Source of the DNA: Methanoregula sp. PtaU1.Bin051 | GTDB taxonomy: Archaea > Halobacteriota > Methanomicrobia > Methanomicrobiales > Methanospirillaceae | Length of the DNA: 64,000 bases | Assembly: GCA_002067895.1 (NCBI GenBank) | Contig: MVRE01000003.1 | Coordinates: 186,001 to 250,000, forward strand | Reading direction: 5' to 3' | Part shown: in pieces, positions 60,403 through 64,000 of the stretch | Layout of the letters: each line of letters opens with the position of its first letter | Position numbering within the stretch: the stretch's first letter is position 1 | The notes under the pieces: generated by a model | Databases searched by the model: none | Told to the model about the DNA's origin: nothing | What the model saw: the letters and a program-made list of their open reading frames with translations, nothing else | Position numbers and translations under genes: made by a program

Positions 60403-61565
60403 GAGACGTCGCAATAATCGGGGCCGGGTGCACGACATTCGGCGAGAAGTGGGGGAGCTCGTTCCGCGACCTGTTCGTCGAGGCCGGGGCGCTCGCGCTC
60501 GAGGACGCACAGCTCTCCGGTGAAAAGATCGACGCGATGTACGTGGGCAACATGAGTGCGGGCAGGTTCATCGAGCAGGAGCATATCGGTGCGCTGATCG
60601 CGGACTATGCCGGCATGGCGACCCGCCACATCCCGTCGACCCGCGTGGAAGCCGCCTGCGCATCGGGCGGGCTCGCGTTCCGGCAGGCCGTCATAGCCGT
60701 TGCAAGCGGCATGGAGGACATCGTCGTTGCAGCGGGGGTCGAGAAGATGACCGATGTCGAGCCCGGCGCGAGCACGGACACGCTGACCGGCGCGGCAGAC
60801 CGCGAATGGGAGGGGTTCGTCGGGGCAACGTTCCCGGGGCTCTACGCGATGATCGCAACCGACTACATGCACCGGTACCCTCTCACCCGCGAGCAGCTTG
60901 CGCTGGTCGCGGTCAAGAACCATTACAACGGGGCACGGAATCCGATCGCCCAGTACCGGCAGGAGATTACGCTGGAGACTGTTCTCAGGTCGACCATGGT
61001 GGCAGAGCCGCTCCGCCTCTTCGACTGTTCCCCGATCACGGATGGGGCAGCAGCGGTCATTGTCGCGCCGCTTGAGCGGGCGAAGGAGTTCACGGACACA
61101 CCGATCAAGGTGCTTGCAACCGCTCAGGCAAGCGACACCATAACGTTGCACGACCGGCGCGATATCTCGACACTGGACGCAACCGTCGCCGCATCGCAGC
61201 GGGCGTTTGCAATGGCAAAGCTCTCGCACAGGGACATCGACCTTGTCGAGGTGCACGACTGCTTCTCGATCGCCGAGATCTGCGCGATCGAGGACATCGG
61301 GTTCTGCAAAAAGGGAGAGGCCGGCAAGTTCACCGCAGACGGACAGACGGCGCTTGGCGGGAAGATCCCGGTCAACACGAGTGGCGGGCTGAAGGCCTGC
61401 GGGCACCCTGTCGGCGCGACCGGCATCAAGCAGGTCTTCGAGGTCGTCCAGCAGCTCAGGAACGAAGCAGGCAAACGGCAGGTCGACGGGGCGGAGATCG
61501 GGATGACGCATAACGTCGGCGGCACCGGGGCGACGGTTGCCGTGCACATCCTCGGGAGGGCGTGA
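60399..61565 (+). CDS. Acetyl-CoA C-acetyltransferase (thiolase)
   Basis: A protein of 388 residues of the archaeal thiolase type. The nucleophile Cys is in [20 protein letters not shown] near 86, and the catalytic His/Cys pair lies in the regions [17 protein letters not shown] near 335 and [11 protein letters not shown] near 285. It makes acetoacetyl-CoA. In methanogens the thiolase, HMG-CoA synthase and a DUF35 protein form one channelling complex; the gene order here matches that complex. Confidence 0.95.
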
Positions 61566-61566
61566 G

Positions 61567-61959
61567 ATGTCCGTCGCAAGGTTCTGGAGGAAGATCCCGC
61601 AGCGGTACAACCTGCTGGGGACAAAGTGCGGGACCTGCGGGAGGCATTTCTTCCCGCCAAGATCGTTCTGCCCCGACTGCCGCAGGGCAGGTAAAATCGT
61701 CGATCACCGGTTCGCCGGCACCGGTGCCGTCGTGACCTATACCGTCATCCACACCGCAAACGAGCAGTTCGAGGCGTATACCCCGTACGTGCTCGCCATC
61801 GTCCAGCTCGATGAGGGGCCGCGAATGACGGCGCAGGTCATCTGCGATCCGAAGGCTGTAAAGATCGGGATGCGGGTAAAGAGCGTGTTCCGCAGGATCG
61901 CCACCGACGGCGAGAGCGGCATCATCCACTATGGCACGAAGTTCGTGCCGGTGGAGTGA
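61567..61959 (+). CDS. DUF35 OB-fold/zinc-ribbon partner of thiolase and HMG-CoA synthase
   Basis: A protein of 130 residues. A zinc ribbon near 20-40 (CGTCGRHFFPPRSFCPDC) is followed by an OB fold (AVVTYTVIHTANEQFEAYTP). It matches the DUF35 scaffold that bridges thiolase and HMG-CoA synthase in archaeal complexes. The start lies 1 nt after the thiolase stop. A T-tract at 61961-61967 ends the operon. Confidence 0.93.
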   Translation: MSVARFWRKIPQRYNLLGTKCGTCGRHFFPPRSFCPDCRRAGKIVDHRFAGTGAVVTYTVIHTANEQFEAYTPYVLAIVQLDEGPRMTAQVICDPKAVKIGMRVKSVFRRIATDGESGIIHYGTKFVPVE

Positions 61960-61967: not shown

Positions 61968-62037
61968 CTGGGATCCAATTCGAATTTATTATTCCCTATG
62001 GGATGATGGGGAATAAAGGAGAGGGCGTTGTCTCATT

Positions 62038-63003
62038 TTAGATTGAATCGCCCCACCATGTCGAAAGATCTTCCAAATATTTGTAGTTAAAATGGTCTCC
62101 CCATCGATCTCTTAAACCAGCCCTGTCAAACTCAATTAAATAAAAAATTAGAAGTACTTCGGGTTGTGTTATTAAGGGATTTGAAATTTCTCCTCGTCTT
62201 TCATTACTTATAAATTCAATTTTTTTTCTATTTTTATGAATAAAATCGTCGATTTCTTGCTTAAATTCCTTTACAGTATGGATGTCAATCAATGTTAATA
62301 GAAAATCTAGATTTGTTTTCGAATAATTTGCATCATAGCTCGTCTTGAACAACTGATAAAAATAAGGAAGAAGGTAGTTCAATACGAATTCAGAGGAGAT
62401 TTCATCAGAATTTAAAATATTTTGATTCACTCTTGAGAAACAACTATCAGCGACTTCAAGCAGCCCACCTAGACAGTGCAATTCTCTTTTAATTGGTTCA
62501 GAAGTAACATTTGCTGGTTTATATCCTATATCGTGATAGATATCGGCCCATACGTTATCACATAATGTTCTAATTTGGATTTCAAATATCAAATTCTTAA
62601 ATTTTTCAAATTCTTTTTTTGTTTCTTTTAATTTCACATCTTTATGAATACTTTTATACCCTTGTTCATAGAAAGCATGTTTTTCATAAAAATCTTCAGT
62701 TTTCTTTACGTCAAAATTTTTATCAATTAATTCACAAATTAACGGAATTTCTTCTTTATATCTACAAATTATTCTCACTCCAAATTTATCCGTCATATCG
62801 TTGTAAGAATAATCCTTATTCTCGTTCCGTTTTAAATTCATTTTTTTATAGAATGAGTAATCTTCCTTTAATCTAGTTTCAATTTTAAAAGCAAGTCCGT
62901 TTGAGTAAGATAAATCCTTTAGAAAAGAGTGAATGATGCTTTCTAATTCTCGATATAATTTTTTTTCATTTTCCCATCGATCTAAATCTTCCTTTAGTGA
63001 CAT
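62038..63003 (-). CDS. RelA/SpoT-domain nucleotide pyrophosphotransferase-like protein, no HD domain
   Basis: A protein of 321 residues from ATG 63003. A RelA/SpoT-type synthetase domain spans about 40-190. It has RLKEDYSFYKKM, the YNDMTDKFGVRIICRYKE strand, the G-loop-like YKSIHKDVKL and the catalytic region FEIQIRTLCDNVWADIYHDI ending GYK. There is no N-terminal HD hydrolase and no TGS/ACT domain, so it resembles small alarmone synthetases, including toxic ones (toxSAS/CapRel type). The C-terminal about 130 residues are helical and unassigned. The gene is very AT-rich, unlike the block before it. It lies 33 bp after the NA37-like gene and is probably cotranscribed. Confidence 0.8.
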   Translation of the reverse strand: MSLKEDLDRWENEKKLYRELESIIHSFLKDLSYSNGLAFKIETRLKEDYSFYKKMNLKRNENKDYSYNDMTDKFGVRIICRYKEEIPLICELIDKNFDVKKTEDFYEKHAFYEQGYKSIHKDVKLKETKKEFEKFKNLIFEIQIRTLCDNVWADIYHDIGYKPANVTSEPIKRELHCLGGLLEVADSCFSRVNQNILNSDEISSEFVLNYLLPYFYQLFKTSYDANYSKTNLDFLLTLIDIHTVKEFKQEIDDFIHKNRKKIEFISNERRGEISNPLITQPEVLLIFYLIEFDRAGLRDRWGDHFNYKYLEDLSTWWGDSI

Positions 63004-63036
63004 ATCGCAGAGAATAACTAACTTCAATTTATCAAA

Positions 63037-64000
63037 TTACGAATCCGCCTCACTAATCTTTTGGGTTCTCTTTTTTGTCACTTTTAAAGGCATTTTACTG
63101 ATTCGTGATTTAATAGTTAATTTGGTAATATCATTAATAGTGCTCTCAATAATCACTTCAGATGCAAAATTTACACTTGCGGCAGTAAGAATAATTCCAT
63201 TTTCGAATAATACTTTCATTTTCTCCACTTGTTTTTTGACATGTTCGGTATCCTTTTCAAAACCATTAAGTTCAACATTTTTTGATTCATACTGGTTCAA
63301 TAAAGATGTTTGAATCCTATTCTGTGAGGGGAAATATGTTTCAACAAATTTTTTTGGTTCTATCCTTGGTACTTCGCTTAATAAATATGAGGATAAGTGT
63401 TCGCGATATTTTATTTGTTCGAGTGGATCATCGATACGAGAACTAATAAATTCAAGAGTGGTATTGTAAAACTCCTGTGTTTGAAATTTTGGATCATGGG
63501 TATATAAACATCCTAAAAAATCTTTCAAATAATAATCTGCACTTTTCCGCTCAATGTTTTGAATATCACATAAATAGGCAACGATCTCTGATTCTTTTCC
63601 ATCTGGCTTTTTAGGTTTTTGATAAAAGATACCCACTTTTAAAACGTTTGATTTATGCATTCTAATGATATTTTCAACGATGTTAATATCGAGTTTAAAA
63701 ATTCCCCCATCTTTTATCTCTTGAATTTGTAAATCTTCACCCTCCTCAAGTTTTGAAATTATTAGTACCGGTTTTTTCTCAATATGACCGGAGATTACAC
63801 ATAATACTCCACTTGTACTTCGCAAATCTTGGGAGTTATCCAAATTATGAGCCATTGAGACTGAATGCTGTAGAAAGGCGTCAAATTTTATTTTTTCATC
63901 AATTTTTGTGTTATCAATTTTTAAAAAGAAATCTCGAATTAACGCTGGCGTCGTAGACGGAGAGTTATCGTCAATTGATATTCGCACCGCATATTGTGAG
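63037..64000 (-). CDS. NA37/NdpA-like nucleoid-associated protein (5' end beyond window)
   Basis: At least 316 residues. The frame stays open to the window edge (a GTG at 63987 is an internal codon or a late start), so the N-terminus may be missing. Stretches such as STSGVLCVISGHIEKKPVLI, KSADYYLKDFLGCLYTHDPK and TTLEFISSRIDDPLEQIKYR fit the 37-kDa nucleoid-associated family PF04245. The C-terminus is Lys-rich (PLKVTKKRTQKI). It is AT-rich like its partner. The family binds nucleoid DNA in bacteria; related proteins turn up in defence neighbourhoods. A pairing with a RelA-like enzyme suggests antitoxin, sensor or DNA-associated trigger, which is inference. Confidence 0.65.
   Translation of the reverse strand, partial: SQYAVRISIDDNSPSTTPALIRDFFLKIDNTKIDEKIKFDAFLQHSVSMAHNLDNSQDLRSTSGVLCVISGHIEKKPVLIISKLEEGEDLQIQEIKDGGIFKLDINIVENIIRMHKSNVLKVGIFYQKPKKPDGKESEIVAYLCDIQNIERKSADYYLKDFLGCLYTHDPKFQTQEFYNTTLEFISSRIDDPLEQIKYREHLSSYLLSEVPRIEPKKFVETYFPSQNRIQTSLLNQYESKNVELNGFEKDTEHVKKQVEKMKVLFENGIILTAASVNFASEVIIESTINDITKLTIKSRISKMPLKVTKKRTQKISEADS

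Follow-up and report, generated by a model that had tools for sequence, protein, structure and literature searches.

Alarmone synthesis and toxins of the RelA type are considered bacterial. Among the closest described systems to the gene pair reported here are the toxSAS toxin-antitoxin modules (FaRel2/ATfaRel2, FaRel), in which a stand-alone synthetase deprived of a hydrolase domain is encoded in a two-gene operon of mobile distribution. The pair found in a methanogen genome shares these features together with the same active-site residues, and its neighbour gene is kept in a tight operon. It differs in the partner, an NA37 protein of roughly 360-380 aa instead of a pZFD, Panacea or hydrolase antitoxin, and in the enzyme, which is extended by a C-terminal helical region of about 150 aa. 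CapRel SJ46 is likewise a prophage-borne RelA-fold enzyme, kept off until infection as is proposed here. In CapRel, however, the enzyme and the sensor are fused, whereas the proposed sensor of the present system is a separate NA37 gene and no C-terminal pZFD sensor was found in the enzyme. The small alarmone synthetases RelQ and RelP provide the closest solved folds (5dec and 6ewz) but, as housekeeping genes, they occur singly and have no NA37 partner.

The NA37 relatives are nucleoid proteins. E. coli YejK/NdpA (PF04245) matches the NA37 protein in profile and fold, with 12% identity in the structural alignment; unlike it, the NA37 copies analyzed here are accessory, lie on mobile DNA and are coupled to a RelA gene. 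Defence in which NA37 proteins take part is already known in principle, since DefensePredictor validated an E. coli anti-phage system with a YejK nucleoid-associated domain, for which the main text of that paper names no partner (PMC13092281).

The window, i.e., the whole stretch of 64,000 nucleotides that was analyzed (C3:186001-250000), belongs to a 2.3 Mb assembly of 96% completeness. Its GC content was 0.58 over positions 1-61959 and dropped to 0.29 and 0.32 in the RelA_SpoT and NA37 genes, respectively, while every other 500-bp stretch of the window stayed at or above 0.438. The drop occurred just past the mevalonate gene cluster, after a host gene of the ChsH2-type OB-fold/zinc ribbon (61537..61959, plus strand; PF01796/PF12172), which adjoins a Trm5-like gene in the sister genomes. 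The AT-rich insert occupied the window from 61960 to its end at 64000 (GC 0.26-0.33) and measured 3.1 kb in total, reaching to about 65096 (C3:247960-251096); the contig ended at 253474, about 2.4 kb beyond it.

In six of the seven congeneric genomes the site was empty, with the OB-fold and the Trm5-like genes convergent and 12-20 bp apart. The last Trm5 codons were altered in the insert-bearing genome of the window. The insert is a clean gain by one species. A T-tract from the ancestral junction was present at both insert ends, being too simple to be called a target duplication, and neither an integrase or tRNA nor a clear terminal repeat was found at the archaeal insert. Its flanks were formed by housekeeping genes with no further defence genes; the host-GC genes on the right were named from the sequence as a Trm5-like methyltransferase and HMG-CoA reductase. 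An assembly chimera is unlikely because both sides carried host-GC genes of one conserved neighbourhood.

The earlier note on this DNA had described an AT-rich island with a sharp change of composition right after the mevalonate genes, containing only two genes separated by 33 bp on one strand. The composition change and the exact gap were borne out, and acquisition of the island was supported. The view of a two-gene island had to be abandoned when the sequence beyond 64,000 was read, as a third, divergent gene adjoined the NA37 gene just past the window end (C3:250230-250994; L002:2731-3495). It encodes a 254-aa ORFan with a GC content of 0.38; searches of the order (231 genomes), of plasmids and viral contigs, and of PDB and the family libraries detected no relatives of it.

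The putative effector gene (62038..63003, minus strand) starts with ATG, with an alternative TTG at 63027, and encodes a predicted RelA_SpoT-domain pyrophosphokinase of 321 aa. The match to Pfam RelA_SpoT (PF04607) reached 66.5 bits with a cut-off of 27, and no hydrolase domain was recognized by Pfam, in agreement with the earlier reading of a synthetase lacking one. In the AF2 model (pLDDT 89), an N-terminal helix was followed by the SYNTH domain (about 40-165) and an all-helical C-terminal region (169-317). The catalytic and ATP-binding residues that this reading presupposed were all nine present (R44, K46, S50, K54, D72, R77, Y116, E141 and Q143) and invariant across 14 diverse relatives. 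They correspond in order to R64, K66, S70, K74, D90, R95, Y128, E145 and Q147 on the published map of FaRel2 (PMC11782079). The nearest solved folds to the model were RelQ/SAS1 5dec (TM by target 0.80) and RelP 6ewz; CapRel matched it only in part, with a whole-chain TM by target of 0.38.

PADLOC model PDC-S33 also matched the RelA_SpoT region (E 2.9e-12), but the match spanned only 133 synthetase-domain residues (29-161; profile 48-175 of 349) and not the full length. To our knowledge, this model has no NA37 partner. The enzyme was the sole RelA_SpoT protein of the window genome, and no HD_4 hydrolase, which could undo alarmone synthesis, was recognizable in that genome. As its active site is complete and no hydrolase that could serve as an antidote is visible, the enzyme would be expected to need control.

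A candidate for such control is the NA37/YejK-type protein encoded upstream (63037..64000, continuing to 64170, minus strand), a proposed sensor or restraining partner. The full gene encodes 377 aa, and the window, which ends within it, shows 320 codons. The NA37-like identity, suggested previously from the letters alone, held up, with a match to Pfam NA37 (PF04245) of 37.2 bits against a cut-off of 24.6 and a YejK-like fold. Searches against Pfam, NCBIfam and PADLOC returned NA37/YejK models only and no known toxSAS antitoxin type (pZFD/YXXY, Panacea, hydrolase). For the structure comparison the AF2 model of the orthologue from G176, a member of another genus of the family, was used (pLDDT 74, moderate). 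Its sole significant PDB match was E. coli YejK 9be2 (Foldseek E 2.9e-8, probability 1.00) with a whole-chain TM of only 0.33-0.37, and the moderate pLDDT and the low TM make the domain arrangement uncertain. Profile and modelled fold both identify the NA37 protein as a distant relative of YejK. Judging from its family, it probably binds DNA or the nucleoid.

Among 231 genomes of the order, NA37 was detected in two and RelA_SpoT over the cut-off in four, which fits the earlier remark that alarmone synthesis is not a normal function of a methanogen. On the same count and the empty site in six sisters, a native archaeal alarmone system was rejected. Archaeal synthetases have been noted as rare and probably horizontally acquired (PMC3153485). 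Both NA37 carriers of the order had RelA_SpoT adjacent, a co-occurrence expected by chance at about 2e-4. The second carrier, G176, encodes both proteins at 51-57% identity to the window pair, and genes next to them specify a Type III restriction system and a D5-type primase; no pair beyond that of G176 was found in the scan of genome contigs. Two further genomes of the archaeal family (L011 and L012) encode lone RelA-domain proteins of 364 and 309 aa without NA37.

The earlier expectation that homologues of the two genes would be neighbours elsewhere proved correct, as they were paired in unrelated lineages in defence or mobile contexts. PLSDB yielded NA37 matches on one plasmid each of Streptomyces, Klebsiella (conjugative) and Ochrobactrum and in a Mu-like prophage in two N. 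gonorrhoeae records, all with the RelA gene directly after NA37. In the N. gonorrhoeae prophage (L015 8801-9810) NA37 is intact and RelA looks broken, being split into two overlapping frames. E. coli carried the pair in 4 of 5,426 genomes, and the three loci examined were integrase islands at tRNA-Thr. The NA37-RelA order was seen in 15 viral contigs. In IMG/VR, RelA relatives of full length occurred in 13 contigs, all with NA37 immediately upstream, and three partial RelA matches had no NA37 in that position; queries from the archaeal clade gave no match in viral contigs. In three NA37-led scans every complete NA37 match was followed by RelA, one match being truncated by the contig end.

The spacing between the two genes ranged from -4 to +34 bp across the loci, with frames often overlapping by 1-4 bases. 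Distances in the NA37 and RelA trees were strongly correlated (Mantel r 0.94, 19 loci, 0 of 10000 permutations as high), for which joint transfer alone may account. All full-length relatives checked were paired save one archaeal NA37. In this exception, the genome G325 (L028, G325:C32, 7560-12876), the genes after NA37 encode a membrane protein of 574 aa and then a large P-loop protein with TPR-like repeats. The association of NA37 with RelA is not absolute, since its partner at this locus is a membrane protein, and it may serve as a sensor module that can be combined with different effectors.

The distribution over plasmids, prophages and integrative elements would fit an addiction or maintenance cassette, i.e., a toxin-antitoxin pair stabilizing plasmids, prophages and islands with no real anti-phage role. 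We regard this as improbable in view of where the pair resides. At least two phage contigs carried the arrangement gpA replication gene - SLATT - NA37 - RelA - portal gene, and the gpA-gpQ interval of P2-like phages is an anti-phage hotspot in which P2 itself carries old and tin (PMC9122126). At other phage-type loci the neighbouring genes coded for a CI-type S24 repressor, an integrase or a Mu transposase, for Type I restriction-modification, or for a lysis amidase together with a serine recombinase. Such P2 and repressor-proximal hotspots are typical of anti-phage cargo, and in the archaeon the pair persists amid no element genes.

The same spread weakens the idea that NA37 controls the element while the RelA enzyme tunes host physiology in the element's favour. 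The kinship of NA37 with nucleoid proteins agrees with such a role, as does the reported control of ICE PAPI-1 transfer by NdpA2 (PMC8565334). However, the pair spans unrelated element types plus an archaeon without an element, and nothing element-specific is conserved alongside it, so we consider this explanation very unlikely.

In several phages and in E. coli and Klebsiella, the gene immediately ahead of NA37-RelA codes for a 2TM SLATT/DUF4231 protein. Its presence raised the possibility of a second-messenger system, in which NA37 would sense infection, the RelA-like enzyme would make an alarmone-type nucleotide and, in one clade, the SLATT/DUF4231 effector would permeabilize the membrane. 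SLATT has been predicted to act as a pore-forming effector that responds to nucleotides (PMC7159879), and the RelA model lies closer to RelQ and RelP, which make (p)ppGpp, than to CapRel. On the other hand, the SLATT-bearing loci formed one clade of the NA37 tree only and most lineages have no SLATT gene, the window island included; the third gene of the archaeal insert matches no family, and SLATT also goes with a reverse-transcriptase system (PMC9122126). We consider a second-messenger system unlikely. In one type of the E. coli tRNA-Thr islands, seen in two genomes (L020 10901-14322), the SLATT-NA37-RelA operon adjoins genes for a RecQ-like helicase and DprA, a pair resembling the rqlHI toxin-antitoxin genes.

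Altogether, we consider it fairly probable that NA37-RelA is a mobile two-gene anti-phage module, abortive-infection or toxin-antitoxin-like. The conserved pair and its order, the intact active site, the fold, the co-inheritance, the horizontal spread and the hotspot location were observed, and they point to a role in defence. Weighing against this reading are the housekeeping flanks in the archaeon, the G325 locus and the RelA-domain proteins that occur without NA37. The NA37/YejK-type protein, encoded by the first gene, would sense infection, probably via the state of the DNA or the nucleoid, and would either hold the RelA-fold enzyme inactive or activate it. The pyrophosphokinase, presumably toxic, would come from the second gene, whose translation is usually coupled to that of the first, and would be the effector halting growth upon infection. 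Once released, this enzyme would move pyrophosphate from ATP onto a nucleotide or tRNA, the candidate acceptors being the tRNA CCA end, ATP or GTP, and growth would stop before the virus matures. The toxSAS-like and CapRel-like readings serve here as working hypotheses. A wider proposal is that bacteria and archaea share a new defence class, in which a nucleoid-associated sensor of viral attack on host DNA organization frees a RelA-type pyrophosphokinase, leading to a new alarmone or a tRNA block, with an optional SLATT pore as a second effector; this we put forward only tentatively and think rather unlikely as a whole.

No description of the NA37-RelA pair, nor of a nucleoid-associated protein acting as a toxSAS antitoxin, was found in the literature searched, which covered few subscription papers or preprints. 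The genomic evidence for the pair is strong; its role as a further kind of RelA-based toxin or defence system is predicted from the sequence. A methanogen genome that has no recognizable HD_4 hydrolase encodes an intact RelA-type enzyme alongside a conserved partner. If NA37 senses nucleoid disruption, the take-over of host DNA by a phage would be linked to a response that acts through an alarmone or modifies tRNA, and the accessory YejK/NA37 proteins of mobile elements would gain a function.

Many related RelA-domain proteins stand alone, so NA37 is not in every case required by an enzyme of the RelA fold. Relatives without NA37 were noted at four loci (L022, L023, L018 and L017), on a 3.5-kb Klebsiella ColRNAI plasmid, in a filamentous Vibrio phage, on a Bacteroides phage-like plasmid and on a Limnohabitans plasmid, where a 483-aa protein is encoded next to several toxin-antitoxin genes.
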